From: Marispirochaeta aestuarii | Lineage (GTDB): Bacteria; Spirochaetota; Spirochaetia; JC444; Marispirochaetaceae | DNA length: 64,000 bases | Direction of reading: 5' to 3' | Assembly (NCBI RefSeq): GCF_002087085.1 | Contig: NZ_MWQY01000012.1 | Coordinates: 99,419-163,418 of the forward strand | Shown here: one piece after another, positions 5,983 through 53,733 of the stretch | Numbering within the stretch: the first letter of the stretch is position 1 | Layout of the letters: every line of letters starts with the position of its first letter | The notes under the pieces: model-generated | The model's input: the letters and a program-made list of their open reading frames with translations, nothing else | What the model was told of the DNA's origin: nothing | The model's database searches: none | Program-made: the position numbers and the translations under genes

Positions 5983-7370
5983 TACTGTACCTCCTCCAGA
6001 AATGCCTTATGCACGGCATTGAGTGCGGCGCTCCGGCTCTCCTGATGAATAACAAAGCTGATATTTCGCTCCGAGGATCCCTGGGCTATAGCGAGAACAT
6101 TGATGTTGGCCCGACCGAGAGCACTGAAAAGGCGGCCGGAAATTCCCGGGGTACCCCGCATGTTCTCACCCACCACGGCGATAATCTCCAGTTCATTTAC
6201 AAGCTCGATGCTCTGGATCATTCTGTAGCGCAGTTCCTCCGCCAGTTCGGTTTTCAGCGCGGCTACCGCAAGGGCTGCCTCTTTTTCACGGCAGACCATG
6301 CAGATGCTGTGCTCCGAGGAGGCCTGGGATATCATGATGATGTTTACCTTTGCGTGGGCCAGGGCACTGAAAACACGGGAAGCGACTCCGGGATGACCGA
6401 GCATGCCGCCGCCTTCGATGTTGATCAGGGCGACATTTTCAATGGAGGCAATGCCGGTAATGGGGGCTGATCCACCTTTGGCTCCGGCTGCGATCCTGGT
6501 CCCTGGAACGTCCGGATTCAGGGTGTTTTTAATATAGATGGAGATATTCTTGTCCACGGCGGGAAGCATGGTGTAGGGGTGAATGACCTCTGCCCCGAAA
6601 TAGGAAAGCTCCATGGCGTCTTCCAGGGATATCTCCGGCAGAACAAAGGCCGTCGGAACGAGCCTGGGGTCCGCTGAGAGTACGCCGTCCACATCGGTCC
6701 AGATTTCCACCCTGTCGGCATCGATGGCGGCTCCCACCAGGGAGGCGGTGTAGTCTGAGCCGTTGCGCCCGAGGGTGGTGGTGACGCCCTTCTCGGTACG
6801 GGCGATAAAGCCGGTAACGACGGCAATACCTTCCACCTTTGAAAGGGTCTGGCGGATCAGGGGATAACTGGCTTCAAAATCGACCTTTGCGTTGCCGTGG
6901 CTTGAATCGGTGACAATCATGCTGCGGGCGTCAACATACTGTGCCGGAGTTCCGCTGGCGCTGAGATACGAGGCAATCAGTCTGCAGTTTATTCGCTCAC
7001 CGAAGCTCATGATCATATCCATGGTTCTGACGGAACATTCCCTGACCAGTTCAACACCGTGGAGTATGTCGGATAGCTCGTCGAGAAGGGTTCCTATCTC
7101 CTTTTCAATGGTTTTCGCAGTATCGTTACCGAAAAGGGCGGCAATGGCTTCCTTCTGCCGGGTTTTTATTTCCTCAACCAGTCGCCGATAGGCGGGATCG
7201 CCCTTTTCTGCTGATGTCGCTGCGTCGATCAGCATATCGGTAATACCTTTCATGGCGGAGAAAACCAGGACGACTGGCTCCGAGGAAGCAGCCCTGCGGG
7301 CTATATCGCTTACATGCTGAATCTTTTCTGCATCTTTGACGGAACTTCCGCCGAATTTCATGACCTTCAT
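5982..7370 (-). CDS. lysC: Aspartate kinase
   Basis: Phosphorylates aspartate, the first step to lysine, threonine and methionine. The N-terminal KFGGSSV motif binds ATP; TTLGRNGSDYTASL and the following DVDGVLSADPR segment are typical of the amino-acid kinase fold. Two ACT domains fill the C-terminal third (each with a G-[MT]-x-G-x-x-[GS] turn), suggesting feedback control, probably by threonine given the coupling to thrC. Start: the ATG at 7370 is preferred (AGGA 6 nt upstream, first residues MKVMKFGGSS); a TTG two codons upstream is the alternative. It is monofunctional, with no homoserine dehydrogenase domain. Confidence 0.93.
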   Translation of the reverse strand: MKVMKFGGSSVKDAEKIQHVSDIARRAASSEPVVLVFSAMKGITDMLIDAATSAEKGDPAYRRLVEEIKTRQKEAIAALFGNDTAKTIEKEIGTLLDELSDILHGVELVRECSVRTMDMIMSFGERINCRLIASYLSASGTPAQYVDARSMIVTDSSHGNAKVDFEASYPLIRQTLSKVEGIAVVTGFIARTEKGVTTTLGRNGSDYTASLVGAAIDADRVEIWTDVDGVLSADPRLVPTAFVLPEISLEDAMELSYFGAEVIHPYTMLPAVDKNISIYIKNTLNPDVPGTRIAAGAKGGSAPITGIASIENVALINIEGGGMLGHPGVASRVFSALAHAKVNIIMISQASSEHSICMVCREKEAALAVAALKTELAEELRYRMIQSIELVNELEIIAVVGENMRGTPGISGRLFSALGRANINVLAIAQGSSERNISFVIHQESRSAALNAVHKAFLEEVQ

Positions 7371-7471
7371 GGGCAATCCTGTTGATAAGTGATTTGATCT
7401 GACTATACAAAATTACCGGGTAAAAAAAAAGAGTGGCACATACCCTTCTTCCTTGGTATGATTTGCATCGT

Positions 7472-39300: not shown

Positions 39301-39714
39301 GGGATTCTCGTTGCTCAGACGCAGAAGGATCAGGTCCGCCAACAGTTCATGGGTCTCCCGGGGACCGTCGGGCTCGGCGGGAAACTCCCTGTTCACCAGC
39401 TCCGTCAGTTCCCGGAGCTGCCGTTCATCTCCGGAATCCGGAAGGATCCTCCGGATACCCTTTTCCGAAAGGGTATCTCCCTCTCCGGCCTGTTTTCTTA
39501 GGATAAGCCGGTAGATTTTCTCCAGCATTCCCAGTCCGTAAAGCTCTCCGGCTCTGAGTATTTTTTCCGGATCGATTTCGTCTCCCCGGGAGGAGTTTAC
39601 CAGGTGGCAGATGGAGCGGACGGCGTGAAAACTCGAAAGATCCGGCCGCCCTGCGGAGTCCAGGAGGGGACTCCCCAGTTTATAGGTCTTGCGGGATTGC
39701 TTGTTGATTATCAT
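36310..39714 (-). CDS. Large GH13 (alpha-amylase family) protein, unassigned subfamily
   Basis: 1134 residues. A TIM-barrel GH13 domain occupies about 265-740, with region I DMVPNHTG (370-377), the nucleophile Asp490 in IRFDAAMTL, the acid/base Glu555 in LLLAEAFW, and Asp616 in NNPDEE where most members have NHD. A MFGHGQIEGF motif follows. The first 260 and last 350 residues are helical and match no domain I know. A single long chain like this recalls GH13 maltosyl/glucosyltransferases, but the product is unknown. The start overlaps the end of the activase fusion gene by 35 nt. No signal peptide, so it acts on internal glucan or sugar phosphates. Confidence 0.75.
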   Translation of the reverse strand: MIINKQSRKTYKLGSPLLDSAGRPDLSSFHAVRSICHLVNSSRGDEIDPEKILRAGELYGLGMLEKIYRLILRKQAGEGDTLSEKGIRRILPDSGDERQLRELTELVNREFPAEPDGPRETHELLADLILLRLSNENPAAERVRELIDDTQLTRNSAYAGLINAADTLFIPPAQAESGESLLQMLRRPLTLHPRSVREQLIYIRENWSDLVSELTIPLLSSLDFLAEEERPWFGGGPGEQHPYSYSEGDFEGFSPDQAWMPMVVMIAKNTLVWLHQLSVKYGRNYTHLDDIPDQELSLLAERGFTALWLIGIWERSGASKRIKHLFGNTQAEASAYSLKAYRISPELGGEKALEALRIKAARFGLRLASDMVPNHTGIDADWIYEHPEYYLQVPVSPYPSYSFSGENLASREGYTTCLEDHYFDHSDAAVVFKHVEDSTGRVRYIYHGNDGTHMPWNDTAQLNYLNPGVREAVVQTILKVAGNFPIIRFDAAMTLARQHIRRLWFPEPGEGGSIPSRAEHALSQADFERAIPEEFWREVVDRVAREVPGTLLLAEAFWMMEGYFVRSLGMHRVYNSAFMNMLKNEENDKYRSTLKNTLEFDREILKRFVNFMNNPDEETALAQYGSGDKYFGICTLLVTMPGLPMFGHGQIEGFSEKYGMEYSRAYKDESPNQELIERHEQEIFPLLKRRALFAESEEFTLFDFIGPSGVNQNVFAYTNRSGDEVALVLYNNSLESAAGSIRTSVPYRDKERDGELHRRSLGEALGVPDNPRRWLIMRQHATDLEFIRNCRDLARRGLDAVLPGYGCQVYLDMRIVADDPDGSYRSIAEKLKGSGCSGIDREIRLMHMKPLHQELARTLRPEIIAVFQEAMFNQKKPETGFLASWAEDYRSFLSTASDKKHPPRNVMPSAARAVLQIATFDLSSRGDIEEELAGFRGYLQRGLEMRPEAPSVFAAWCLTHGLSGAFGETSNPGVSRSLIDDWHLGTPLRDIFSHAGLSWPKADYAVSLVKLLTSYQNWHLSVRDRDGNRYLAELLHEQEIQDFLLVNRYNNILWFNKDRFEDMLWWFFCIAVVQLTEKPGAKAHPRIDSLFNTLHTWLECEERSSFRLTRLIDLLNREEGEEKKMGDSSLKDHP

Positions 39715-42700
39715 GATAACTTGGTACTCCTGGGCTCCGTTTTTCCAGCTCTCGTGCGTTTATTATCAGCATCTGCAGCCTGTTCTCCACGTTGGCAAGA
39801 CTGGTATCCGGATCAAAGTCGAGGGAGAGAACCTGAATGTGGGGGAGCTTCTTTTTTACCGATTTGATTATTCCCCGGCCGGTAATGTGGTTCGGCAGAC
39901 AGCCGAAGGGCTGGATTATAACGAAGGAGTTGACCCCCCGCATACTCTGATCGATTATGTCAGCCGGAATCAGCCAGCCCTTCCCCGAGTTGAAGACCGG
40001 GTCTACGAGACCGTCGATGTGCACTGCAAGATCATCGTACCTTTCCCTGGTTTCAAAGAAGCGAAAGCTCCGGTTGATCCCTTCCATAAGGCTGATACCC
40101 CAGTCTATCAGATTGTCAGTGGCGATGGATTCCAGGGCTTCGAGAAAAGGAAAGCGCACGTGAAAGCGGCGCATGGACTGCCGAACCGTGGAGGCGTCCT
40201 TCTTGAATACGTCGATCATGGGGGGCATGACTACCTCCATGCCGTTTTTCTCCAGGTACTCCTCGATGTGGGCGTTGGAAACGGGGTGGTAGTTGATAAG
40301 GATCTCTCCGATGACAAATACCCTGGGCTTCCGCTCCCCCTCCACAAGGGGAATGCGGTTAAAGGCCGTCACAGCCGACCGGTACTCCTCCAGGGCGGCC
40401 CTGGTTCCCCGTTCAAAGCCCTGTTGGACACGTTCCAGCCAGTACCTGTGGGTCCTGTCGGTTTCGCCGGAATTCTGTTCATAGGGTCGAAGGCGCCGGG
40501 CCATGCCGTCCAGGCTGTCACCGATAAGGATGGCCCAGAGCATGCGGTACTGGAAGCTAATGCCGAGTTTGAGTCCCGGGTGTATCCCCTTTTTATCCTT
40601 TCCGGTGGTTATAATGGGTACCTGCGGGTACCCGGCGTCGTCCAGGGCTTTCCGTGCCACCGTCGCGTACTGGGCCAGTCGACAGTCGCATTCGAAATGG
40701 GCCAGGCCCAGGGCGAAATCGTCGGGACGACCCGAGGCCTCGATATGGGCCAGGGCTTCTCCGATATTCAACTGGGCGGGAAAACACATATCGTTGTGGA
40801 CATATTTTTTTCCCAGTTCCACTGCCCGCTCGCCGGCAAGTTCCATGGGGATGGCTCTGTATCCTTCTCTGCGGAGTACCGCGGCGGTGAGCCGGGTAAA
40901 GGTGGGGGAGAGGTTGGGAACCAGGATCGTTTTTTCGCTCCGATGTCCCCTGGTGTACTTGGCTGGAAAGGGGTCCGGAAGCTTGTGTGTGGCCGTATTT
41001 TTTCCTGTCCGCACCCGTTTTGCCCGGACCGTTTCGACAAAGGATTTGATCCGGATGTTCAGGGGGCCTGGTACATCGCTTTCGTCCAGTTTCAGCACCA
41101 GGGGATCCTTGTTCCCTCCCGCCTTCATGATACGTATGATCTCGTCGGAGATAACCGCGTCATGCCCGCAGCCGAAACTGACGATCTGAACCAGTTCCAG
41201 GGCGGGATGTTCCGCGGCAATCAGGGCGGCTTCGAACATGCGCACGTGAAAATTGATTGCCGTCTCACCCCGTACCCCCGAAAGATCCACCTCGTTGAAG
41301 CCGGGCAGGCTGTCCACGGTGAGGACGGGGATTCCGTGGCGGGTGAAAAAGCGGGAGAGGTCGTGGTTGACCAGAAAATCGTTATGGTAGGGTCTTCCCG
41401 CCAGTACCACGGCGAAATCCCCTTTTTCTTCGCTGCTGCGGATAATCTCCCTGCCTTCGTTCTGCAGGGTCTGCCTGAACTCGCCCTGGGCCCTGTCTGC
41501 TTCGGCAATGGCCTGCTTGAGCACCTGTCGCGGGATGTTGTAGGTGGAGGCAAAGTAGTCCGCCAGCTGCCTGTCCCGGGACCGGAGGTCGTACCAGTGG
41601 AAGGCCGGGGTATCCATGGGGATTCCGTGGAGGATGGCCGGTTCGTGGCTCTCCTTGAGGATCAGGGGATAGCCCTGGACCACGGAACAGAGGTAGTTGG
41701 AGACGGCGCTTTTGTTTTCCGACTCCATCCGCAGCATCATGGGCATGAAGATGCGGTCCACCCCTTTTTCAATCAGGTCCATCAGGTGGCCGTGGGCTAC
41801 CTTGCCGGGAAAACAGGCGGTATCCGAGGGAACATAGCGCAGTCCCGCTTCATAGAGTTTACGGGTGCTCTCCCGGGAAATTTGCACCTTGAAACCCAGG
41901 GAACTGAATAGGCTCCGCCAGAAGGGCATGCTGTGCCAGAACTCCAGAACCCGTGGAAGGCCGATGGTATAATTCTTGGGAGGGCTGAGCTCCCGGGTTT
42001 TGTAATCAGCAAAAAGGAGCTCCCGCCTTCTGCGCATCATGTCTGGAACGGTGTCCAGTTTTTGACTGGCGGCCTTGAGTTTTTCCCTGACTCCGGGATC
42101 TTTTACGTCCCCGATTATCTGTCCCCGTTCGCAGCGGTTTCCGGTTATAAACCTCGATCCGTCAGCAAAGCTGACCAGGGTCCGGCTGCAGTTATTGGAA
42201 CAGAAGGGGCAGATGTGCCCCGGTTCCTTGGTAAAGGAGAAGTTGGCAAGGCCCTCCTGTCCGATAAATCTGCTTTTTCCGGAAAGATTCTGCTTCTTTG
42301 TCAGCAGGGCAATACCGATGGCACCCATCTCTCCGGGGAAAGGGGCCCGGGTTATCCGCTTGCCCGAGTACTGCTCAAAGGCCCGCAGAACCGCGTCGTT
42401 CTTGAAGGTCCCGCCCTGAACCACCACCGAGTCTCCCAGGGCGTCCAGGTTTGATACCCGGATGACCTTGGTAAAAACGTTCTCGATAATCGACTTGCAG
42501 AGACCCGCCATAATATCCTCCGGGGTCTTGCCGTTCTTCTGTTCCGTGATTATCGAGGAGTTCATGAATATTGTGCAGCGGGAGCCGAGTTTGGCAGGGG
42601 CGGAGGAGGAAAAGGCCTTTTCCGCGATCTCCTCCACCGGGATCTCCAGGGAGTTGGCATAGGTTTCCACGAAGGAGCCGCAGCCGGCGGAACAGGCCTC

Positions 42701-44086
42701 ATTGAGGACGATGCCGGTGACGATTCCGCCGGTGAGGGAGATTGCCTTCATGTCCTGGCCGCCGATGTCGAGAATGAAACTCGCCTCCGGCTGGTAGTGG
42801 AGGGCGGCTTCTGCATGGGCCACGGTTTCCACGGTGTGATAATCCGCCTTGAAGGCGGCGGCGAAGAGCCCTTCTCCGTAGCCGGTGCTGCCGGCGCCGA
42901 GGACCCTGAGCTTGACTCCCTGGGCTTCAAAGTGACGATAGCAGTCAAGCAATCCCTGCTGTACTACCGTCAGGGGATCTCCGTTATTGCCGGAATAGAA
43001 GCGGTAGACCACCTCTTCCTCTTCGTTCAGAAGGACGAACTTCGAGGTTGTGGATCCTGCATCTATACCCAGATATACGGAAAGCTCCGTTCCCGCGGGA
43101 TGGGCTGGGCTTCTGAAGGCTGTGAGAGGATATCTCCGGTGGAATTTTTCCTTCTCTTCAGGGGAGGAGAAGAAGGGAACCGCCTCGAAATCCCGTTTGT
43201 CGGCGTATTCTCCCTGGGGACGGGCCAGAGCCTTCATGGCCTCGATCTCCTGGTAGCGGTTTTCATCATCTCCGAACATGATTCCCACCGAGAGGGCGGT
43301 GCCGTAGGCTACAATCACCTCCGGCCGCTCCGGCAGAATGATCTCGTGCTCCTTGAGTCCGAGACGTTCGGCAAAAACCCGGATCAGCACCGGATTAAAG
43401 GTCAGGGGACCGCCCTCGAATATAACGGGCGGGACGATCTCCATACCCTGGGCGAGACCGCCGATGGTCTGTTTGGCAATGGCGTGAAAGGTTGAGAGGG
43501 CGATGTCCTCTTTGGATACCCCCTGGTTCAAAAGGGGCTGAATATCGGTCTTGGCAAATACCCCGCAGCGCCCGGAAATGGGGTAAACCGTCTTTCCCCG
43601 TTCGGCGTAACTGTTGAATTCCGTGGAGGTAATCTTTAACAGGGAGGCGACTTCGTCAATAAAGGCTCCGGTACCGCCGGCACAGGAGCCGTTCATGCGC
43701 ATGTCCGAGGCCATCAGCCTGCCGGTGTTCTCGTCGTGGTGGAAAAAAACGACCTTCGCGTCCTGTCCGCCCAGTTCAATGGCGACCCTGGTCCGGGGAA
43801 AGAATTCCCGTATGGCCAGGGAGTTGGCCACCACCTCCTGAATGTAGTGTCCGTTTACGGCCTTGGCGATGATCCGCCCGCCGGATCCGCAGACGGCCAC
43901 GTTGAAATCGGCTCCAGGAAAGAGCGCATGGGCTTCTGCCAGCAGTTCCCTGGCGCAGGCAGCCTGCTTGGCCCCGTGACGACGGTATACGGCGTGGAGA
44001 AGTTCTTTTGTTTCAGGGTCGACAAGGGCAATTTTAAGGGTAGTGGATCCGACATCAAGTCCGGCCCAAATTTGAGAACGGGACAT
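39680..44086 (-). CDS. Giant acyl-CoA dehydratase activase-like fusion (two ASKHA domains plus HgdB-like part)
   Basis: 1468 residues. Two BadF/HgdC-type ASKHA ATPase domains lie in tandem (each beginning GLDVGSTTLK or GIDAGSTTSK, with GGQDAK/GGQDMK and the second with the CSAGCGSF cluster ligands). Then a Cys-rich knot (CPFCSNNC, GNRCERG) and a long region resembling the DUF2229 and HgdB-like 2-hydroxyacyl-CoA dehydratase parts (CFPGKVAHGHLMDL; FGCGHDA). HgdC injects electrons into the dehydratase at the cost of ATP; the fused form is widespread in anaerobes but its substrate is not known. The ATG at 44086 has AGAGGA 6 nt upstream; a longer frame to 44179 has no such site. Confidence 0.8.
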   Translation of the reverse strand: MSRSQIWAGLDVGSTTLKIALVDPETKELLHAVYRRHGAKQAACARELLAEAHALFPGADFNVAVCGSGGRIIAKAVNGHYIQEVVANSLAIREFFPRTRVAIELGGQDAKVVFFHHDENTGRLMASDMRMNGSCAGGTGAFIDEVASLLKITSTEFNSYAERGKTVYPISGRCGVFAKTDIQPLLNQGVSKEDIALSTFHAIAKQTIGGLAQGMEIVPPVIFEGGPLTFNPVLIRVFAERLGLKEHEIILPERPEVIVAYGTALSVGIMFGDDENRYQEIEAMKALARPQGEYADKRDFEAVPFFSSPEEKEKFHRRYPLTAFRSPAHPAGTELSVYLGIDAGSTTSKFVLLNEEEEVVYRFYSGNNGDPLTVVQQGLLDCYRHFEAQGVKLRVLGAGSTGYGEGLFAAAFKADYHTVETVAHAEAALHYQPEASFILDIGGQDMKAISLTGGIVTGIVLNEACSAGCGSFVETYANSLEIPVEEIAEKAFSSSAPAKLGSRCTIFMNSSIITEQKNGKTPEDIMAGLCKSIIENVFTKVIRVSNLDALGDSVVVQGGTFKNDAVLRAFEQYSGKRITRAPFPGEMGAIGIALLTKKQNLSGKSRFIGQEGLANFSFTKEPGHICPFCSNNCSRTLVSFADGSRFITGNRCERGQIIGDVKDPGVREKLKAASQKLDTVPDMMRRRRELLFADYKTRELSPPKNYTIGLPRVLEFWHSMPFWRSLFSSLGFKVQISRESTRKLYEAGLRYVPSDTACFPGKVAHGHLMDLIEKGVDRIFMPMMLRMESENKSAVSNYLCSVVQGYPLILKESHEPAILHGIPMDTPAFHWYDLRSRDRQLADYFASTYNIPRQVLKQAIAEADRAQGEFRQTLQNEGREIIRSSEEKGDFAVVLAGRPYHNDFLVNHDLSRFFTRHGIPVLTVDSLPGFNEVDLSGVRGETAINFHVRMFEAALIAAEHPALELVQIVSFGCGHDAVISDEIIRIMKAGGNKDPLVLKLDESDVPGPLNIRIKSFVETVRAKRVRTGKNTATHKLPDPFPAKYTRGHRSEKTILVPNLSPTFTRLTAAVLRREGYRAIPMELAGERAVELGKKYVHNDMCFPAQLNIGEALAHIEASGRPDDFALGLAHFECDCRLAQYATVARKALDDAGYPQVPIITTGKDKKGIHPGLKLGISFQYRMLWAILIGDSLDGMARRLRPYEQNSGETDRTHRYWLERVQQGFERGTRAALEEYRSAVTAFNRIPLVEGERKPRVFVIGEILINYHPVSNAHIEEYLEKNGMEVVMPPMIDVFKKDASTVRQSMRRFHVRFPFLEALESIATDNLIDWGISLMEGINRSFRFFETRERYDDLAVHIDGLVDPVFNSGKGWLIPADIIDQSMRGVNSFVIIQPFGCLPNHITGRGIIKSVKKKLPHIQVLSLDFDPDTSLANVENRLQMLIINARELEKRSPGVPSYHDNQQAIPQDL

Positions 44087-44380
44087 TGTTTTTCCTCTTG
44101 CCTGCCGATGATAGTAATTATTCCGGTTTTTGTCGAGCAGTCGGGTCTGATTCCGCGGTAATGCAGGATTCTCCGGCAACGTTTTCCGGAATAAAAAGTA
44201 TGGCAGATTCTATCTGTCAGTCTATTATGCAGAGGGTCAGACGTGAGAATACTAATGAAAAAATTTGTAACATAAATGTAATACAGGCTTCAGATTTGCT
44301 TCATAAATATTCCTTAGATTGTACTTGAACACCGGGAGGAAGAATCCCGGATGAAAGATGTGTTCTGGAGGATAGTAAGT
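44087..44380. other. Gene-free divergent spacer before the SHOCT gene
   Basis: An AT-rich stretch (44220-44330) that should contain promoters for the divergent genes; TTGCTT at 44297 with TGTACT downstream is only a weak candidate. CCGGGA and TCCCGG (44332-44350) form a 6-bp hairpin just before the SHOCT gene. No gene seen. Confidence 0.4.
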
Positions 44381-44911
44381 ATGAAACGCTACTTTTTTGT
44401 TTTTTTTGCCGTGTTTATTCTTGTTTCCGTAGCCGTCTGGGGCGATTCTGATACCCATGATCAGAGCATTGCGGATGTGGAGTCTGAAATCAGGGACGTC
44501 CTGGGACTGACCATGACCGAAAACATAAATCCGGAAAAGGTTCCTGACAACCTGATGCTCGAACTTGGTGACGCTGTAATGGCCAGTCATGTCGGCAGTG
44601 GAGCGCAGCACGAATGGATGGACCGGATGATGGGCGGAGAAGGCTCCGATTCGCTGGACTCTGCACACCGGTGGATGGCTTTCCAGTATCTTACCGGCGG
44701 CTATGGTGCTTCTGGTATGGGGGGTTACGGTATGATGGGAGGCGGCATGATGGGCGGCGGCATAGGCCGCGGCTGGGGCCTGATGAGCAATTCGGGGGTA
44801 GAGAATTATTCCAACCCCTACAATTCGCCCGAGGACATCCTCAAGCGGCGCTATGCCGCCGGAGAGATTACCCGGGAACAGTATCAGCAGATGCTCAAGG
44901 ATCTGCAATAA
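44381..44911 (+). CDS. Exported Met/Gly-rich SHOCT-domain protein
   Basis: 176 residues: signal peptide or N-terminal helix (KRYFFVFFAVFILVSVAVWG), a helical part, a low-complexity Met/Gly region (GMGGYGMMGGGMMGGGIGRG, about 110-130) and a C-terminal SHOCT motif (PEDILKRRYAAGEITREQYQQM). Met-rich segments bind Cu(I) in exported copper proteins, and a copper ATPase with its two-component regulators lies 5 kb on, so a copper-buffering role is a reasonable guess. The ATG at 44381 is preferred to 44351 because GGAGGA lies 8 nt upstream. Followed by a strong terminator. Confidence 0.65.
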   Translation: MKRYFFVFFAVFILVSVAVWGDSDTHDQSIADVESEIRDVLGLTMTENINPEKVPDNLMLELGDAVMASHVGSGAQHEWMDRMMGGEGSDSLDSAHRWMAFQYLTGGYGASGMGGYGMMGGGMMGGGIGRGWGLMSNSGVENYSNPYNSPEDILKRRYAAGEITREQYQQMLKDLQ

Positions 44912-44921
44912 TGCCCCTCCT

Positions 44922-44964
44922 GCCGGGGGTAACGCGCATCAGCCACGTAACCCCCGGCTTTTTT
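44922..44964 (+). terminator. Rho-independent terminator after the SHOCT gene
   Basis: GCCGGGGGTTA-type stem: GCCGGGGGT (44922-44930) with ACCCCCGGC (44950-44958) and an inner ACG/CGT, then TTTTTT. It separates the SHOCT gene from the methyltransferase gene. Confidence 0.85.
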
Positions 44965-44983: not shown

Positions 44984-45604
44984 ATGAAATCCGATCAGGA
45001 ACGTATACAACGCCGATATGACCGCATAGCGCCCCTGTACGATCTGCTTGAGCGCCCCATGGAAGCCAGTTTTGTGGCATGGAGAGTGCAGCTTCTGACC
45101 AAGGCTGCCGGCCGTGTTCTGGAAGTCGGCGTCGGCACCGGCAAGAATCTTCCCTATTATCCGCCCGATGTATCGGTAACGGGAATCGATTTCAGCCGCG
45201 AAATGATTGAACGAGCCCGGTCCCGGGTGGAGAGTCAGGGTCTGGATAACGTGACCCTCATTGAAATGAACGCGGAAGAGCTTTCCTTTGAGGATAACAG
45301 CTTTGACACAATAGTCAGTACCTGTGTTTTCTGCTCGGTGCCGCTACCGGTAAACGGGCTGCGGGAGTTGCAGAGAGTCTGCAGGCCCGACGGGAGAGTC
45401 CTCATGCTCGAGCATGTCAGGAGTGAGGGACCTGTTATGGGTCCCCTTATGGATTTCCTGAACCCCCTTCCCCTCTATCTGTATGGAGCCAACATAAACC
45501 GCCGGACTGTGGATAATCTGCTGCAGGCCGGTTTTCAGCACATAGAGGTAACAAACCTGTGGCGCGATATCGTCAAACAGATAATTGCCCGTCCGGGCGC
45601 ATGA
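44984..45604 (+). CDS. Class I SAM-dependent methyltransferase
   Basis: 206 residues of the UbiE/Methyltransf_11 type. SAM-binding motif I is VLEVGVGTGKN, motif II VTGIDFSREMIERA, then NAEELSFEDNSFDTI and GRVLMLEHV. The C-terminal part is short. Substrate unknown; enzymes of this sort are found next to metal and arsenic resistance genes as well as quinone biosynthesis. CGGAG precedes the ATG. Only 37 nt separate it from the EI-YHS gene, suggesting cotranscription. Confidence 0.8.
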   Translation: MKSDQERIQRRYDRIAPLYDLLERPMEASFVAWRVQLLTKAAGRVLEVGVGTGKNLPYYPPDVSVTGIDFSREMIERARSRVESQGLDNVTLIEMNAEELSFEDNSFDTIVSTCVFCSVPLPVNGLRELQRVCRPDGRVLMLEHVRSEGPVMGPLMDFLNPLPLYLYGANINRRTVDNLLQAGFQHIEVTNLWRDIVKQIIARPGA

Positions 45605-45641: not shown

Positions 45642-47567
45642 ATGAATGACAACCTACTGAAGCAACCACAACGTTATGTTCTTGCAGGTACCGACATTGC
45701 AGGCGGGCCTTCCGTGGCCGGCATTCTTGTTTCCGGCGTTTCCGGACCTGAAGGCTTCTCGAAGGAAAAAAAGTTTACATCGACTACATCCGGTGCAGAA
45801 GAAGAGAAGTATAGCATTGAGACGGAAATTGCCCTGCTTGGGGATGAAGTTCGTTCCATGGCGGAAATACTGAACCGGGAAGGTTTCGAGTCGGAGTCGA
45901 AAATACTCGATACGCATGTTCTGATGCTTGAGGACGAAGGAATAAAGTCCAGACTCATGCACCGAATTGAGGAGTACGGAGAGTCTGCAGAGGAAGCGGT
46001 GGTCTGTGTATTCGGAGAAATGAAAGATCGCCTGCTGGAATCGGATAATGCCCTGATACGTGAACGATCCGCTGATGTTGAGGATCTGATGCAGCGTCTT
46101 AAGTCTCGATTATCCGGAATTGAGCAAATCCGGGAATTGCCCGTCCCGGTAAGAAACGCCTCCCTGGTGCTTGTTTTTCCAGAACTCTTTGTATCGAATG
46201 TTGTGGAGGCTCGAAACGCCGGTGTTGCGGCGATTATCGTTGAGTCCGGAACAGGATTTTCCCACGCTGCCATCATGGCGAAAGCATTCGGGATACCCGT
46301 ACTTAGAGTCAATGGTATTGAAAAGCTGTATGAAGCGATGGGCGCAATAGTCGTGGTGGATGTGGAAAACGGTCGACTGGTGATACATGCCGACGAAGAC
46401 GACATTTCGTCAGCTGCACTGGCATCCGCAACTGCGACGGATGAAGCATATATCGACTCGCCCCTGAATATATGGCTCAATCTTGTTGATACGGATTCAC
46501 ATCCCCCGGAATCGTTACATGGCGATACTATAGCGGGAATCGGGCTCTTTCGGAGTGAGTCTCTGCTTACCGAGCGATTGTCAGGATTCCCCAGCGAAGA
46601 AGAACAGTACGCAGTCTATCTACAGCTCTGCAGACGGTGGAAGCGTTATCCCGTTACTATCCGCATGTTTGATATCGGTGGCGACAAGACCGTACCGTAT
46701 TTTTCACTGGGACCACAGGATAATCCTTTTCTGGGACTGCGGGCCCACCGACTGTATCGCTTTCATCCGGAGCTTTTCATGAATCAGGTCCGGGCAATTC
46801 TTCGAGCCGGTATTGAGTGTTCTGATCTTCGTATTCTTTTCCCGATGATAGAAACAGTTGAGGAGCTCAAATATCTGCAGGAACTGCTGGCGTCTGCGAT
46901 GGAAGAAATGAAGCAACAGGGAACGGCGTATCGTCATGACGTTAAACAGGGAGTATTGATTGAAGTTCCTTCCGCTGTATGGATTCTGAAAGATCTACTG
47001 GAACGGCTGGATTTCATCAGCGTCGGTACCAATGATCTGTTGCAGTACCATTTTGCAGTTGATCGCGGTAATATTAATGTGAGTAATTACTACCAACCCG
47101 AGCATCCGTCAGCTCTTCGGATGCTGAAATATATTGCTGACGCTGCATCGGAATCCGGGAAGCAGATTACTCTCTGTGGAGAGATTGCAGCGGATCCGTA
47201 TCTTGTTCCTGTACTTTACGGTATGGGGTTCAGGGATCTCAGTGTCGACTTCCATGCCGTTAATTCTGTCCGGCTTTCCGTGCCTGAAGGTTCAAGCGAC
47301 GGGTTGGAGAATATTGCCGCCCGTTGTGTGTCCGCATCCTCAATCGAGGAGGTACACGCGATCTTGGACGAATCGGGAGGTTCTGATCGCTTGAAGCCTC
47401 TCGACCACAGTAATCGGGGGACAGGATTCATTGATCCTGTTTGTGGAATGGTAGTCCACAGGCAGGAAAATCTATACTCGTTTACTACGGACAGGGAGAC
47501 GTACTTTTTTTGTTCGCCGGAATGTTTAGAGCAGTTTTCCCGTAAACCTGAAAGGTATATACGCTAA
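45642..47567 (+). CDS. PTS Enzyme I-like phosphotransferase with C-terminal YHS metal-binding domain
   Basis: 641 residues. Residues 1-585 are a complete Enzyme I of the PEP:sugar phosphotransferase system: phospho-acceptor His208 in TGFSHAAIMAK, MFDIGGDKTVPYF, NPFLGLRAHR, GTNDLLQYHFAVDRGN and the active-site Cys512 in LCGEIAADP. Residues 596-641 add a YHS domain (DPVCGM at 598-603; YFFCSPEC with Cys624 and Cys628; FSRKPERYI), known from copper-ATPases and metal-handling proteins. I know no characterised EI-YHS fusion. No HPr or EII gene is in the window. The gene is poorer in GC (about 47-50 % in sampled lines) than copB and copS, a sign of transfer. GGAAGGA lies 12 nt before the ATG. Confidence 0.88.
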   Translation: MNDNLLKQPQRYVLAGTDIAGGPSVAGILVSGVSGPEGFSKEKKFTSTTSGAEEEKYSIETEIALLGDEVRSMAEILNREGFESESKILDTHVLMLEDEGIKSRLMHRIEEYGESAEEAVVCVFGEMKDRLLESDNALIRERSADVEDLMQRLKSRLSGIEQIRELPVPVRNASLVLVFPELFVSNVVEARNAGVAAIIVESGTGFSHAAIMAKAFGIPVLRVNGIEKLYEAMGAIVVVDVENGRLVIHADEDDISSAALASATATDEAYIDSPLNIWLNLVDTDSHPPESLHGDTIAGIGLFRSESLLTERLSGFPSEEEQYAVYLQLCRRWKRYPVTIRMFDIGGDKTVPYFSLGPQDNPFLGLRAHRLYRFHPELFMNQVRAILRAGIECSDLRILFPMIETVEELKYLQELLASAMEEMKQQGTAYRHDVKQGVLIEVPSAVWILKDLLERLDFISVGTNDLLQYHFAVDRGNINVSNYYQPEHPSALRMLKYIADAASESGKQITLCGEIAADPYLVPVLYGMGFRDLSVDFHAVNSVRLSVPEGSSDGLENIAARCVSASSIEEVHAILDESGGSDRLKPLDHSNRGTGFIDPVCGMVVHRQENLYSFTTDRETYFFCSPECLEQFSRKPERYIR

Positions 47568-47636: not shown

Positions 47637-48758
47637 TCAGGAATCTGAATCTATGGGAAGGGTTAAGGTAAAGGTGCTGCCGAAGCCGGGCCCCCGGCTG
47701 TCTGCGGTAATAGTGCCGCCGTGGGCGCGGGCCAGGTGGATCGCGATGGTCAATCCGATTCCGCTGCCTCCGTGGGCCCGGGCCCGGGAAGAATCGACCC
47801 GGTAGAAGCGGTCGAAGAGATGCGGCAGATGTTCCGGCGCAATTCCTATGCCGGTATCCTGGATTGAGAACCGGAGATGAGAGTTGAGGAGGCTGCATTT
47901 GAGCCGTACAACTCCACCCTGGTTTGTGTATTGCAGCGCGTTGCCGAGCAGGTTGATCAGGATCTGCAGTACCCGTTCACTGTCCATCCTGATATGTGGC
48001 AGGTTGTGGGATACTTCCACGACAAGCTGCACGCCTTTGTCTTCAAACTGGGATTCCAGCCGGGATACGGTACGACGTATGAGCTCCGCCGGATTGGTCT
48101 GCTCGAGATCTAGCTGAATAATCCCCGCTTCCGCCTTCGAGAGCTGGCTCAGTTCCTCGGTCAGGCGCTGCAGCCGGGATGTTTCTCGCTGGACATCGAG
48201 GAAGGTTTCGGTATCCGGAGAAAGCACCCCGTCGATAAGCCCCTCCATCATGCTGCGGATTCCCGTCAGGGGTGTCTTGAGCTCATGGGCGAGGTTCCCG
48301 ATCAGCTCCGTACGTCGGCGCTCGGTTCCTTCCAGGATTTCCGCCATCTGGTTAAAACTCAGGGCCAGTTCGCCCAGCTCGTCATTCCATTTGGTCTGTA
48401 TCCTGTCGCTGTAATTGCCGTCCGCTATGCGTTTGCTTGCTTCCATCAGGGACCGGATGGGGCTGACGATCCTCCAGGCAATGAAACTGCTTGCCAGTAC
48501 CGCGGCAACAGAGGCTACAACCCCGGAAATGAGAAGAATCTCATTGCTTGCCGCCAGAAAATTTCTGCGCAGGTCCTCCGCCATTGCATTATCCGGTCCC
48601 AGAAGGATCCGCATGTGTTCCATGTGGTGCAGAAACGCGTTGGGCGCCTGAATCCGGGATGTAACTACCAGAACCAGGCTGCCGACAACAACGATCAGAA
48701 TGTGCGAAAGGAAGAGCTTCCAGCCCAGCAGGTGAGGTACGGGTTTCCTGATTTTCAT
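47637..48758 (-). CDS. Sensor histidine kinase of the copper operon (CopS/CusS-like)
   Basis: 373 residues. TM1 about 14-33, a short periplasmic loop (about 34-72) with HHMEHM, TM2 about 74-97, HAMP (VSPIRSLMEASKRIADG) and a HisKA/HATPase core with the phospho-acceptor His158 in NLAHELKTPL, N box NLLGNALQYT, and G boxes DTGIGIAP and GGSGIGL. The clustered His and Met residues in the tiny sensor loop fit direct Cu(I) or Ag(I) sensing; this is inference. The start overlaps the regulator stop by ATGA. Convergent with the EI-YHS gene. Confidence 0.85.
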   Translation of the reverse strand: MKIRKPVPHLLGWKLFLSHILIVVVGSLVLVVTSRIQAPNAFLHHMEHMRILLGPDNAMAEDLRRNFLAASNEILLISGVVASVAAVLASSFIAWRIVSPIRSLMEASKRIADGNYSDRIQTKWNDELGELALSFNQMAEILEGTERRRTELIGNLAHELKTPLTGIRSMMEGLIDGVLSPDTETFLDVQRETSRLQRLTEELSQLSKAEAGIIQLDLEQTNPAELIRRTVSRLESQFEDKGVQLVVEVSHNLPHIRMDSERVLQILINLLGNALQYTNQGGVVRLKCSLLNSHLRFSIQDTGIGIAPEHLPHLFDRFYRVDSSRARAHGGSGIGLTIAIHLARAHGGTITADSRGPGFGSTFTLTLPIDSDS

Positions 48759-49465
48759 GCGTTTGCCGCCTCAAAACGGTATCCGGCGCTGCGCACCGTC
48801 ACGACAATGCCGGCGGAGGCCGGATTATCCTCTATTTTCTGCCGCAGGCGCCGGATGTGAACATCCACAACACGCTCATCGATGTAATAGTCGTCCTTCC
48901 ACACATGCTCGATGAGCTGGTCCCGGCTGAGCACTCTGTCGTGGTTGGTTGCCAGGACATGCAGCAGATCGAATTCGATCGGTGTCAGCTGCAGCAGCCG
49001 GTCGTCCTTCCATACTTTTCGCCCCGCCGGATCGATGGTAATCCGGGAGAACCGGATTGACCGGTCCCCCTCGCTGGTCGAATGCCGTTCACGGCGCTGG
49101 AGTACCGTTACCCGGGCTGCCACTTCCCGTGGACTGAAGGGTTTGACAACATAATCATCGGCACCCATCCGCAGTCCGAGGAGCCGGTCCGTTTCGTCTC
49201 CCCGGGCGCTCAGCATCAGAACCATGACGGAAGATTCCTGCCGTATGCGGCGGAGCACCTCTATGCCGTCGATCCCGGGGAGCATGACATCCAGAATTAT
49301 TACCGAGGGCGTGAACCTGCGCATTGCAGGAAGAACCTCGTTGCCGTGGGAAACTTCCTCTACCTCATACCCCTCGTTTTCCAGGTACGCCCGCAGGGAT
49401 TTCCTGATTGCCGACTCGTCGTCGACAACCAGTACCCGCTTTTCCGTCTTCATAGCGTTACTCAT
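48755..49465 (-). CDS. OmpR-family response regulator of the copper operon
   Basis: 236 residues. Receiver with Asp59 (IILDVMLPG) and Lys in VVKPFSP, and a winged-helix DNA-binding domain (LTPIEFDLLHVL; DVHIRRLRQKIE; VRSAGYRFE). Typical CopR/CusR partner of the following kinase, coupled through an ATGA overlap. Start at 49465 or, with better spacing from GGGGATGAG, ATG 49453. It lies 50 nt downstream of copB, on the same strand, so copB-regulator-kinase form one operon and would be self-regulated. Confidence 0.88.
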   Translation of the reverse strand: MSNAMKTEKRVLVVDDESAIRKSLRAYLENEGYEVEEVSHGNEVLPAMRRFTPSVIILDVMLPGIDGIEVLRRIRQESSVMVLMLSARGDETDRLLGLRMGADDYVVKPFSPREVAARVTVLQRRERHSTSEGDRSIRFSRITIDPAGRKVWKDDRLLQLTPIEFDLLHVLATNHDRVLSRDQLIEHVWKDDYYIDERVVDVHIRRLRQKIEDNPASAGIVVTVRSAGYRFEAANA

Positions 49466-49515: not shown

Positions 49516-51537
49516 TCACGCGGTGGCCTCCTCCAGCTCCTCTTTTTTGACCCGCAGGAGCCGGGCGTTGATAGCGACGATAACCGTGGAGAGGGACATG
49601 AGGATCGCGCCGACTTCGGGAGAGAGCACGATGCCTGCGTTGTAGAGAACACCTGCTGCCAGAGGAATAGCCACGACGTTGTACCCGGTTGCCCAGATCA
49701 GGTTCTGCACCATTTTTTGATAGGTTGCTCTACCGAAAAGGATCAGGGCGGTAATGTCCAAGGGATTGGAATTGACAAGAATAATGTCCGCCGTGGAAGC
49801 CGCGACATCCGTTCCCGAGCCGACCGCAATACCCACTTGGGCCTGTGCCAACGCTGGTGAGTCGTTAACGCCGTCGCCGGTCATGGCGACGTATTCTCCC
49901 TTTTTCTGCAGTTCCTTTATCTTCTCCTGTTTCTGGTCCGGCAGAACCTCCGCAAAGAAGCCGTCCATTCCCAGTTCCTCTGCAACTGCCTTCGCTGTAG
50001 CAGTGTTATCTCCAGTAAGCATCCAGCACTTTATGCCCCGTTTCTGCAGGGCCTGCACCGCTTTGTAGGATTCGGGACGGATGGTATCGGAAAGGGCCAG
50101 AGATCCCGCAATGGTGTTGTCCACAAGAACGAACACCCTGGTAACCCCCCCTTTGGCTTCCGCACCTTCCGGAATCGCAAGATTCTGCTCCTTCAGGTAT
50201 CCGGGGCTGACTACCTCTATCTGCTTTCCGGAAACGATACCGGAGACCCCTTTTCCCTTGATGGCTTCGAAATTATCCGCCGACTCAGGCTTGATCCCCA
50301 TGGTCGTGGCTTTCTGAACAATTCCCTTGCCGATAGGGTGCTCGGAATGCCCTTCCAGGCTGGCGGCGAAGGAGACAATCTGCTCTTCGGTGTAACTGTC
50401 GCTGTGAACGTTGACGGCGGTTACTTCGAAGGTCCCGTTGGTCAGGGTTCCGGTTTTGTCGAATACCAGGGTGCTTATTCTGCGGGCGTTTTCGAAGGCT
50501 GTCCGGTTGCGTATCAGAAGACCATTCTGGGCAGATTTCGAGGTGGAAACGGAGACAACAAGAGGAATCGCCAGGCCGAGGGCATGGGGGCAGGTAATGA
50601 TCATGACCGTGGCCATGCGTGCGATTGAGAACTGCAAATCCATTCCGGCGATAAGCCAGGCGGCAAGGGTAACGGCCCCCACGCTTATGGCGACAATGGT
50701 AAGCCAGAAGGCCGCCCGGTCGGAGAGGGCCTGGGTTTTGGATTTTGCTGCCTGGGCCTCGCGTACCATGTTGATGACCTTGGAAAGGTACGAATCCTCG
50801 CCGGCGCCTTCGACCCGAAGCTCCAGAGATCCGTCGCCGTTGATCGAACCGCCGATCAGGGTGTCGCCGGTCTGCTTTTTGACGGGCCTGGATTCCCCGG
50901 TCAGCATCGATTCGTCGATGTAGCTTTCGCCCCTGACGACCTCGCCGTCGGAGGGAATCTTTTCTCCTGGTTTGATCAGCAGCACGTCCCCTTTTTGGAT
51001 TTCTGATAAAGGAACGTCTTCCGTTTCGTCGCCTTTTTTACGGTGAGCTTCGCTCGGCATGAGCTGTGCCAGTTTTTCCAGGGAGGACGAGGCGCTCAGG
51101 ACCGATGCCATCTCGATCCAGTGTCCCGCCAGCATGATTGCTATCAGGGTTGCAAGTTCCCAGTAAAAAGGCGACCCTTGCAGGCCGAAGGTCACCGCCG
51201 CGCTGTAGACGTAGGCGACTGAAATAGCCAACCCGATAAGAGTCATCATGCCGGGATTTTTCGCCTTTAATTCGCTGATCAGACCTGAGAGGAATGGACG
51301 TCCTCCATAGAAGAAGATAACCGTTGCCAGTGTGAAAACTACGTAGTCCGACCCTGCGAACCCGAAGGAAAATCCCAGCAGCTGTTGAATAAGTTTCGAA
51401 AGGGCCAGGATCGGGACGGTAAGAACAAGGGTAACATAGAAGCGCCTCCTGAAGTCCCGTATCATCATGCGGTGGTGTTCGTTGTGGTCGTGATGACTCT
51501 GGTGTTCATGATGTTCGTGATGGTCGGTTGTGGCCAT
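49516..51537 (-). CDS. copB: CopB-type copper/silver P1B-ATPase
   Basis: 673 residues. A His-rich N-terminus (residues 6-22 with ten His) replaces the CxxC metal domains of CopA. Motifs: CPH at 316-318 in the metal-transport helix (the CPH class of P1B ATPases), TGES in the actuator domain, phosphorylated Asp360 in FDKTGTLTNG, the SEHPIGKG loop (HP motif) and MTGDGVNDSPAL. CPH enzymes export Cu(I)/Cu(II) or Ag(I) to the periplasm. First gene of the operon with the two regulators. Its promoter (51734-51762) holds a CsoR-like operator, about 200 nt upstream. Confidence 0.92.
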   Translation of the reverse strand: MATTDHHEHHEHQSHHDHNEHHRMMIRDFRRRFYVTLVLTVPILALSKLIQQLLGFSFGFAGSDYVVFTLATVIFFYGGRPFLSGLISELKAKNPGMMTLIGLAISVAYVYSAAVTFGLQGSPFYWELATLIAIMLAGHWIEMASVLSASSSLEKLAQLMPSEAHRKKGDETEDVPLSEIQKGDVLLIKPGEKIPSDGEVVRGESYIDESMLTGESRPVKKQTGDTLIGGSINGDGSLELRVEGAGEDSYLSKVINMVREAQAAKSKTQALSDRAAFWLTIVAISVGAVTLAAWLIAGMDLQFSIARMATVMIITCPHALGLAIPLVVSVSTSKSAQNGLLIRNRTAFENARRISTLVFDKTGTLTNGTFEVTAVNVHSDSYTEEQIVSFAASLEGHSEHPIGKGIVQKATTMGIKPESADNFEAIKGKGVSGIVSGKQIEVVSPGYLKEQNLAIPEGAEAKGGVTRVFVLVDNTIAGSLALSDTIRPESYKAVQALQKRGIKCWMLTGDNTATAKAVAEELGMDGFFAEVLPDQKQEKIKELQKKGEYVAMTGDGVNDSPALAQAQVGIAVGSGTDVAASTADIILVNSNPLDITALILFGRATYQKMVQNLIWATGYNVVAIPLAAGVLYNAGIVLSPEVGAILMSLSTVIVAINARLLRVKKEELEEATA

Positions 51538-51762: not shown

Positions 51763-51909
51763 GAAAAATCATTATCCACCATAATATGGTAATACGCGCT
51801 CTTGACGTGTATATTTTTTCCCCCCATGATTTACATGAAGGCAAGATTAGATTCAAAACTGGCACCGGGAGGGCTTTTCCTGCATGTCGGTTCCTGTCGG
51901 GGGGATAAT

Positions 51910-52194
51910 ATGAGCGATTCGCAGAAGAAAACCAAACTGATGGAAGTCTCAGTCTGCATAGGAACGAATTGTGCGTTCCGCGGTGCATCGCAGCTCATGG
52001 AAGCCCTTGTTGCAGATAAAGAAATCCGTGAAAAATGTACCATTCATGAGATTTCGTGCCAGAACGATATGTGTGATCATTCCCGCAGATCTCCGGTGGT
52101 TCGGATAGATGGTGACTATTTTCTGGAGGCACGCCCGGAAGTAATCCTCGACGAAGTCCATCGGCGTATCGCGATGAAAAAGATTAAGGCCTGA
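51910..52194 (+). CDS. NuoE-like [2Fe-2S] thioredoxin-fold protein
   Basis: 94 residues. The thioredoxin-like [2Fe-2S] ferredoxin fold is indicated by two Cys pairs, VCIGTNC and ISCQNDMC, and the following RRSPVVRIDGDYF strand. In hydrogenases and complex I such subunits (NuoE, HydC type) pass electrons between a flavoprotein and the main chain. The stop is 3 nt before the hydrogenase ATG, so the two are made together. A start at 51910 has a strong G-rich site (GGGGG) upstream. Confidence 0.75.
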   Translation: MSDSQKKTKLMEVSVCIGTNCAFRGASQLMEALVADKEIREKCTIHEISCQNDMCDHSRRSPVVRIDGDYFLEARPEVILDEVHRRIAMKKIKA

Positions 52195-52197
52195 AGC

Positions 52198-53733
52198 ATG
52201 AAAGAGATTGGTGTAAAGCGTGTTTTCGAGCGAATGCGGGGGATCTATACACCCGTTACGGATTTACGCCGTCGCCTGCTTATGGAAATCGCCGGATTTG
52301 TTCTGGAAGGGAAAGAACCTGCTGCAATCGAAGAAATCCCTTTCAAAGTTATCGAAATGGGTAAACCGACCTATCGCTGCTGCTCCTACCGGGAGCTGTC
52401 TATAATCCGGCAGCGAATACGGCTGGCATTCGGGTTGGCGCTGATTGAAGAGCGGGATAACATCCCAGTTTCGCGGGGAATCGAAAAAGCCTTCACCGAT
52501 AGGAAAGTGATCGATGCCCCGTTGGTGCATGTTATTCGTGCCGCTTGTGAAAAATGTCCTGAAGACGTGGTTCTTGTTACCGATAAATGCCAGGCCTGCA
52601 TGGCCCATCCCTGTTCCATTGTCTGCCCCCGGAACGCCATCTCGTTCCCGGAAAGTAAGGCCGTTATCGATCAGGAAAAGTGCATTAAATGTATGAAATG
52701 TGTTCAGGTCTGCCCCTATGCGGCAATCACGAGGATGGTGCGTCCCTGCGCCGAAGCCTGCGGTGTGGATGCGATTGATTCCGACGACGAAGGTTTTGCC
52801 CGGATAAATCATGCAACCTGCGTCAGCTGCGGGTTGTGCATTGTCTCCTGTCCTTTTGCCGCAATAGCGGAAAAATCGGAGATTGTTCAGGTGGTTATCA
52901 GTCTGCTCCGTAAAAGCAGTCAAAGTAAATTGTATGCCATTGTTGCGCCTTCTTTTCCTGGACAGTTCGGAAGCAAGGTTTCTCCCGAGATGATTTTCGC
53001 AGGGATCAGCAAGCTTGGATTCGACAAGATTATGGAAGTCGCCTACGGTGCGGATTGCGACACGATTCTGCTTGCAGACAGGTACCGAAAAAAGCAGAGC
53101 GGGTTTCTGGGGACCTCTTGCTGCCCTTCGTGGGTCAAGGCGGCACGGGCATATTATCCGGACCTGGCGGAGAATATTGCAGACAGTTACACCCCAATGG
53201 TGGAAACTGCAAAAAAGATCAAGGAACGGGATGCGGATGCAAAGGTTATTTTTATCGGACCCTGTATCGCCAAAAAAGATGAAGCCATGAGCGAAGAAGT
53301 TGCCGGATACGTTGATCATGTCCTGACCTTCGAGGAACTGGCGGCTTTGTTTGTGACTTTCAGTATCGATTTGCTTTCCCTTGCGAGGGAGATGCCCGTG
53401 GATGATGCCAGTGTCCTGGGCCGGGGATATGCGAATGCAGGAGGTGTCGGCGAAGCTATTATCCGTACAGCTGAAAAAAGCCATGGGATAACCGATATTC
53501 AGTTTGAACGAGCCGATACCCTGCAGGAATGCAGGGCGATGCTGGAAAGAATCAAGCGCGGAGAGAGAAGCCCGGACCTCATAGAGGGAATGGCGTGTCC
53601 CGGCGGATGTGTCGGCGGTCCGGGGACGCTGTCATCTCTAAAGCAGGCGGCGCGGCAGGTTACCAGGTTTGCCGAATCCGCATCCTTTCATTTTCCCCTT
53701 TGTGATGAGGAACCTTCAGTCGGTAATCCGTAA
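52198..53733 (+). CDS. [FeFe] hydrogenase large subunit, group B-like
   Basis: 511 residues. The C-terminal H-cluster domain has all three signatures: L1 TSCCPSW (306-312), L2 GPCIAKKDE (with Cys356) and L3 EGMACPGGCVGG (463-474, with Cys467 and Cys471). Upstream lie three Cys-rich ferredoxin segments (131-143, 162-172, 208-218) for [4Fe-4S] clusters. GPC in place of MPC at L2 points to group B, a little studied class found in anaerobes. An N-terminal 110-residue part is unfamiliar. No maturases HydE, F or G are nearby, so they must be elsewhere. Only the small [2Fe-2S] protein is linked to it. Electron partner unknown. Confidence 0.88.
   Translation: MKEIGVKRVFERMRGIYTPVTDLRRRLLMEIAGFVLEGKEPAAIEEIPFKVIEMGKPTYRCCSYRELSIIRQRIRLAFGLALIEERDNIPVSRGIEKAFTDRKVIDAPLVHVIRAACEKCPEDVVLVTDKCQACMAHPCSIVCPRNAISFPESKAVIDQEKCIKCMKCVQVCPYAAITRMVRPCAEACGVDAIDSDDEGFARINHATCVSCGLCIVSCPFAAIAEKSEIVQVVISLLRKSSQSKLYAIVAPSFPGQFGSKVSPEMIFAGISKLGFDKIMEVAYGADCDTILLADRYRKKQSGFLGTSCCPSWVKAARAYYPDLAENIADSYTPMVETAKKIKERDADAKVIFIGPCIAKKDEAMSEEVAGYVDHVLTFEELAALFVTFSIDLLSLAREMPVDDASVLGRGYANAGGVGEAIIRTAEKSHGITDIQFERADTLQECRAMLERIKRGERSPDLIEGMACPGGCVGGPGTLSSLKQAARQVTRFAESASFHFPLCDEEPSVGNP

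Follow-up and report, generated by a model that had tools for sequence, protein, structure and literature searches.

EI-YHS, a protein encoded in the Marispirochaeta aestuarii DNA analysed here (a stretch of 64,000 nucleotides, referred to as the window), is by its residues a catalytically complete PTS Enzyme I (EI) joined to a YHS domain (Table 1). The sequence of both parts, together with the analogy of a copper-responsive adenylyl cyclase, points to a copper-switched PEP phosphotransferase that would act as a second input to the HPr of the cell, a reading that we regard as evenly poised between right and wrong. Both halves, and the plan of placing a sensor on an enzyme, are of known kinds; their combination is undescribed as far as could be found. 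No description of an EI-YHS protein was met in open-licence PMC full text, where the YHS passages of papers on YHS domains and copper treat the cyclase, archaeal islands, selenoprotein lists and FetA, with no EI-YHS among them.

Table 1. Features of the EI-YHS locus, in window positions.
Feature	Position	Strand	Remarks
Met/Gly-rich SHOCT protein	44351..44911	+	N-terminal hydrophobic segment; 53% identical homologue at locus L019
Probable intrinsic terminator	44922..44964	+	9-bp GC-rich stem, 19-nt loop, T6; between SHOCT gene and methyltransferase
Class I SAM methyltransferase	44984..45604	+	37 bp upstream of EI-YHS
EI-YHS	45642..47567	+	641 aa; ATG at 45642, stop ends 47567
EI-YHS layout			PTS Enzyme I, aa 1-~577; linker, ~578-594; C-terminal YHS domain, 595-640
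His208 codon	46263..46265	+	Predicted phosphohistidine, in loop GTGFSHAAI
Cys512 codon	47175..47177	+	Equivalent to E. coli Cys502 by alignment
YHS domain (Pfam match)	47430..47561	+	Predicted metal ligands Asp598, Cys601, Cys624, Cys628
Sensor histidine kinase (HAMP-HisKA-HATPase)	47637..48758	-	Converges on EI-YHS
OmpR-type response regulator	48755..49465	-	Domain matches
Copper-type P1B ATPase (CopB-like)	49516..51537	-	TIGR01511 618.2 bits, cut-off 397; His-rich N-terminus, CPH motif

The start and stop codons of the gene both agree with the boundaries given in an earlier annotation made without database searches (the sequence-only reading). The protein scores 360.8 bits against TIGR01417 (PTS Enzyme I; cut-off 341.7) and 276.9 bits against NF008382, the E. 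coli-type PtsI equivalog, for which 824 bits are required. Four Pfam families match at E ≤ 0.01, namely PEP-utilisers_N (PF05524, the HPr-binding domain; 42.3 bits over residues 48-142, cut-off 24.4), PEP-utilizers (36.5 bits over residues 176-244, cut-off 23.1), PEP-utilizers_C (268.5 bits over residues 290-547, cut-off 22.8) and YHS (PF04945; 36.8 bits over residues 597-640, cut-off 30.3), with no GAF domain among them. EINtr (PtsP) is a GAF-Enzyme I with the GAF domain at its N-terminus, and an assignment of EI-YHS to EINtr was rejected on the lack of a GAF match. Like EINtr, EI-YHS is an EI paralogue that carries an extra, presumably sensory, domain and exists beside another EI, but its extra domain is a C-terminal YHS rather than an N-terminal GAF.

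A search of 5.8 billion proteins with EI-YHS returned 4169 matches at E ≤ 1e-20. Thirty family members were picked by hand from the best 120 of these; 33 sequences were aligned at first, of which P0064 (without the YHS tail) and P0004 and P0006 (near to sequences kept) were dropped. Against the profile of the 30, family members in nine carrier genomes score at least 542 bits and the other EIs there at most 452. Whether such fusions are common had been left to a database search by the sequence-only reading. The profile recovers at least 164 protein clusters at E ≤ 1e-145 (7999 candidates scored), so that the fusion is not a one-off and goes partway towards being common, but it is rare in species genomes: it was found in one of 98 relatives of the window genome (two of the same genus included, both without it), and, with so few candidates scored per genome that absence is not certain, in one of 392 genomes of the phylum (at most three candidates each) and, around two other carriers, in one of 369 (at most three) and one of 145 (at most eight), the hit in every case being the genome on which the search was centred. 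Source names among the matches listed include Alkalispirochaeta sp., Deltaproteobacteria and Rhodothermia, and the automated JGI/NCBI names of P0087, P0094 and P0097 mention the YHS part. Nine further family loci come from five sources labelled Spirochaetota, Spirochaetales or Spirochaeta, one Gammaproteobacteria, one Phycisphaerales and two labelled uncultured bacterium, the phylum labels being tentative as the named carriers are all metagenome-assembled. Viral contigs gave 37 pattern matches, none of them confirmed, and plasmids gave two EIs at E ≤ 1e-60, both below 31% identity.

In an unrooted maximum-likelihood tree of the EI part, a single branch (length 1.12, support 100/100) separates the 30 members from E. 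coli EI and 17 other EIs drawn from the ten carrier genomes. These 17 sequences, used for the tree and for the column counts below, are from 19 other-EI loci, L051 (386 aa) and L054 (PEP-synthase-like) falling below the length limit of 430. The GC content of the gene is lower than that of the window, as the sequence-only reading had remarked (49.3% versus 53.5%, and 55.5-58.4% for the genes of the ATPase, kinase and response regulator). This, and the absence from the two same-genus genomes, would fit a recent fusion accident or assembly artefact without selected function, an explanation that is already contradicted by conservation (the number of clusters, a single well-supported branch and the retention of ligand and active-site residues) and that we consider most improbable. 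A chance junction of open reading frames was rejected likewise, since the same architecture recurs in diverged homologues.

In the YHS part, Asp598, Cys601, Phe623, Cys624 and Cys628 are invariant in all 30 aligned members, partly by choice since the tailless P0064 had been dropped; residues 601, 624 and 628 are the three cysteines that had been noticed in the window protein beforehand. With a looser pattern, the Asp and three Cys are found in 115 of the best 120 of the 4169 matches (the window protein included), 111 of the 115 having C-x22-C spacing, and regular expressions for the YHS half-motifs in the same 120 find both in 112, a single one in four more and neither in the remaining four. 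Among the matches listed, P0042 has a Cys in place of the Asp, and P0062, P0064, P0096 and P0116 are without the YHS tail. Used alone as a protein query, the YHS region matched only itself among eight candidates, and as a single sequence it gave E values of 0.03 or worse against the PDB. A YHS profile matched PDB entries for eL24/L24e, phenol hydroxylase (which we take to be kin of the toluene hydroxylase named in the cyclase paper) and a zinc finger MYM-type protein, all weakly (E of 0.001-0.05, the best being 0.0011). L24e is counted as a TRASH protein in passages of the paper on the class III adenylyl cyclase of Mycobacterium phlei, where YHS domains are described as related to TRASH domains (PMC4626032).

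The same passages report that the C-terminal YHS domain of the cyclase, with D178, C181, C204 and C208, confers its response to copper: with Cu2+ at 1-10 µM, the activity of the full-length enzyme rises sixfold in the presence of Mn2+ and is turned on in that of Mg2+, and the catalytic domain alone is not stimulated, the metal site itself being termed probable (PMC4626032). The spacing of these four residues is identical to that of Asp598, Cys601, Cys624 and Cys628 in EI-YHS. A YHS domain has also been predicted in FetA, from a gene cluster of Campylobacter investigated in iron-limited conditions, and the metal of the YHS domain in EI-YHS may therefore be other than copper.

His208 and Cys512, from which a complete EI had been proposed, align with His189 and Cys502 of E. 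coli EI, and at all ten further PEP, Mg and active-site positions checked the window protein has the E. coli residue. His189, Arg296, Arg332, Arg358, Glu431, Asn454, Asp455, Arg465 and Cys502 (E. coli numbering) are present in the window protein and in all 30 members; of His189 and the ten further active-site positions, only Glu504 varies in the family (29 of 30 members have it), and it is also the only one to vary in the 17 other EIs, of which 12 have it. The catalytic residues stay unchanged at identities of 35-47% to the window protein. A dead EI serving as a scaffold is accordingly not favoured, the catalytic residues being kept. The loop ahead of the active His differs: the family has G-[TS]-x-[mostly L/F]-SH and the window protein GTGFSH, which does not correspond to the GGRTSH of E. 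coli-type PtsI, whereas the other EIs mostly have GGxTSH. The Thr at position -2 from the active His, presumably equivalent to the control site of plant PPDK, is thus found in one of the 30 members versus 16 of the 17 other EIs. The EI part contains more Cys than other EIs (mean 5.9 versus 3.2), which is the opposite of what a copper-protected isozyme arising through Cys depletion would show, and this candidate was rejected.

The YHS domain could instead be a copper chaperone or sink, with the EI part merely carrying it or lending it a dimer and with phosphotransfer incidental. Such a role would accord with the presence of YHS and TRASH domains in copper ATPases and copper-binding proteins (PMC4626032 among sources, in the passages on these domains) and with the linker that precedes the YHS part, which is of low confidence in the structure model (the structural listing spans residues 11-579) and probably flexible. 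Invariant catalytic residues at the identities given above would be unexpected in a passive carrier, and we consider a chaperone or sink improbable.

The SHOCT protein, the methyltransferase and the copper-type ATPase that the sequence-only reading placed beside EI-YHS were all found. The ATPase, from its CPH motif, is taken to be CopB-like. The SHOCT protein is likely to be exported, and the methyltransferase and EI-YHS are probably co-transcribed. The probable terminator between the SHOCT gene and the methyltransferase was read from the sequence, its loop being too long for the promoter/terminator scan, in which it is therefore unlisted; the scan itself gave 9 versus 6.3 and 10 versus 8.9 expected from shuffles, which is about chance. 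A common operator upstream of the SHOCT, methyltransferase and copB genes was sought and rejected, as the matches were of 13 out of 16 positions, all involved the SHOCT upstream region and none was convincing. The two-component pair that the sequence-only reading had linked to copper is present as a histidine kinase and response regulator, but scores 180.7 of 292.55 and 173.9 of 279.2 bits against the heavy-metal models TIGR01386 and TIGR01387, below both cut-offs, so that the word copper applies to it by linkage only.

Elsewhere in the window, a monomeric group B [FeFe] hydrogenase is encoded at 52198-53733 (+; TIGR04105 523.6 bits, cut-off 450). Ahead of it lies the gene of a 2Fe-2S thioredoxin-like protein with a sub-cut-off match (51865-52194), and behind it a short open reading frame with a sub-cut-off histidine-kinase match. 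At 39680-44179 (-) lies a giant of 1499 residues resembling CoA-enzyme activases, with two BadF/BcrAD-type ATPase stretches and DUF2229.

Ten family loci were compared, the window and L011-L019, many of them on short contigs. At five of the ten, the family gene has a metal pump above cut-off within 10 kb, either a copper ATPase (TIGR01511) or an RND pump for heavy metals (TIGR00914), versus none of 18 control EI genes from these genomes (Fisher p=0.0026; L051 was kept among these controls and the PEP-synthase-like L009, L010 and L054 were left out); the ten loci are not independent, as the window and L019 share an island and L012 and L013 share neighbours. With partial and below-cut-off metal matches the counts are six of ten versus one of 18 (p=0.0033), from a below-cut-off list picked by eye, a re-reading of which gave no further entry within 10 kb of any EI. 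The metal genes differ between loci: a CusB with heavy-metal-binding domains and CusA at L015, a copper-type ATPase and a CsoR-type repressor at L017, and a divergent copper ATPase with HMA domains at L016; L011 combines the end of an RND pump with a P-II-like gene and a fragment of an ATPase. L014 has no more than the C-terminal 70 residues of an RND pump, and the sole candidate at L012 is an AraC regulator whose HMA match stays below cut-off (22.7 of 24.8); no metal gene was found at L013 (a 7.5-kb contig) or at L018 (Phycisphaerales). The YHS part is seen at nine of the ten loci, the exception being L017, where a partial family member (5470-6675, +; profile match 86-468) shows no YHS.

Several of these loci have further features. 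The L017 member is cut at both ends and runs into an unrelated open reading frame, as in a truncated gene or an assembly join. At L018 a CheX-type gene (6876-7406, +) follows EI-YHS, and the neighbours scanned include CBS/PAS, PRC-barrel and ion-channel genes. The P-II-like protein of L011 (PF00543; 4206-4577, +) is encoded between EI-YHS and the copper-ATPase-like fragment. P-II proteins read metabolic state too.

At L019 (12502-13720, -), in an uncultured Spirochaeta, the six genes of the window island are all present but differently ordered, with identities of 84% for copB, 68% for the methyltransferase, 66% for the response regulator, 60% for the kinase (over the 247 residues available), 53% for the SHOCT protein and 49% for EI-YHS; the SHOCT-kinase-regulator-copB island is accompanied there by the methyltransferase and EI-YHS. 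A related island in genome G018 (L062) matches the SHOCT-like protein, kinase, response regulator and copB, but its 11-kb contig, which breaks off within copB, carries no methyltransferase or EI-YHS gene, and a search of the genome (81% complete) yielded no family member. Since the island of L019 has both genes and that of L062 has neither, the gene content suggests that EI-YHS and the methyltransferase form a separable module added to the copper island.

A location in metal-efflux islands would also suit a copper-tolerant spare EI, in which the YHS tail would sequester copper around the reactive Cys and keep PTS flux going under copper stress, with no signalling. Each of the nine other carriers does have another EI or a piece of one (in G445 a 386-aa frame only). 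An EI part richer in Cys than those of other EIs, with Cys512 kept in all 30 members, runs counter to such a role, which we rate slightly lower still than that of a copper chaperone or sink.

The genome of the window has three other EIs, namely an ordinary ptsI, a GAF-PtsP-like one and a third accompanied by HPr and EIIA genes; of its four HPr matches, three are strong. None of these HPr matches is on the window contig, which bears out the earlier statement that no HPr lies near EI-YHS. HPr is present in all ten carrier genomes, with exactly one match in eight (that of G443 containing a stop codon inside the match), and an EIIA-type PF00359 protein is present in all ten. In the eight genomes with one HPr, an EI-YHS that is an HPr donor would have to use the HPr that the other EI uses.

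On the surface that would face HPr, Ile72, His76, Asp82, Arg126 and Asp129 are kept in 27-30 of the 30 members; His76, together with Leu79 and Leu123, is counted here among the HPr-facing positions on our own assumption. Tyr122 of E. coli EI, which contacts HPr, is Tyr in none of the 30 members versus 14 of the 17 other EIs. The acidic HPr-facing patch is also weaker, with a mean charge of -1.17 versus -2.47 in the other EIs (p=0.0014, uncorrected for kinship) and a charge of -3 in the window protein versus -5 in E. coli EI. The HPr contacts listed in passages on the EI-HPr interface are Glu67/68, Glu74, Asp82, Glu84, Tyr122, Arg126, Asp129 and hydrophobic residues (PMC3724859).

The loss of Tyr122 and the weaker acidic patch leave room for acceptors besides HPr, or ahead of it. 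EI-YHS might thus be copper-controlled but serve an acceptor other than HPr, such as another phosphocarrier or a regulator, possibly linked to the methyltransferase. The change of Glu74 to Arg or Gln in 22 of the 30 members and the location of the HPr genes of the window genome on other contigs would agree with this, as would a methyltransferase homologue at four of the ten family loci (the window, L012, L016 and L019) that is absent together with EI-YHS from L062. On the other hand, no candidate acceptor recurs beside the family gene in the ten loci inspected, the HPr-binding PF05524 domain persists, every one of the 30 members having Asp129 and 27 of them Arg126, and eight of the ten genomes offer a single HPr match only. 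A different acceptor is thus unlikely, though the foremost of the alternatives to the copper-switched input to HPr.

For that preferred reading, the cyclase provides the closest precedent. Both are dimeric enzymes with one C-terminal YHS domain after a short linker, the same Asp and three-Cys spacing and copper as the proposed signal (the cyclase as described in passages of PMC4626032); the catalytic part of EI-YHS is unrelated, being a PEP phosphotransferase, and its output would be protein phosphate, not cAMP. Autophosphorylation of EI from PEP is described, in passages of PMC5537066, as needing dimerization and a large swing of the His domain, and this need would offer a handle for a tethered sensor. 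The shared ligand spacing and the swing and dimer requirement together favour a copper-gated phosphotransferase. The YHS domain would hold Cu, which would alter the domain swing or dimerization needed for autophosphorylation and thereby switch the phosphorylation of His208 on or off; from His208 the phosphate would move to the shared HPr and on to EIIANtr-type and other acceptors. Copper load and PEP supply would in this way be read jointly and written onto the existing phosphotransferase network. By analogy with the M. phlei cyclase, which Cu activates, copper would more probably switch the enzyme on than off. The proposal of the sequence-only reading that this is a metal-responsive PEP phosphotransfer protein is partly supported, by sequence and by analogy, in that the active-site residues and YHS ligands are kept in the 30 members, metal-efflux genes recur at family loci and the cyclase spacing is shared.

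With respect to other known systems, EI-YHS differs from E. coli EI (PtsI; PDB 2hwg) in its C-terminal YHS domain, its altered active loop, its lack of Tyr122 and its own 100/100 branch. It resembles the TRASH/YHS domains of copper ATPases and of archaeal CopT/CopM in having a small domain, predicted here to bind metal, in copper loci, but this domain sits on a PTS enzyme and not on a pump or a transcription factor.

The PTS network reads carbon (PEP/pyruvate) and, through EINtr, nitrogen signals. More tentatively than the copper switch itself, and with the balance somewhat against it, the unnamed EI branch may represent one old EI-YHS fusion that spread in metal-resistance islands of several bacterial lineages as a copper-gated PEP input, competing with ordinary EI for what is often the only HPr, such that copper stress would directly reset carbon and nitrogen control. 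If EI-YHS is copper-gated, metal load would be a direct input to the phosphotransferase network, YHS sensing would gain an output besides cAMP, and the presence of a PTS enzyme inside metal-efflux islands would be accounted for. A copper-gated EI would also make the coupling of metal stress to central metabolism accessible to experiment.
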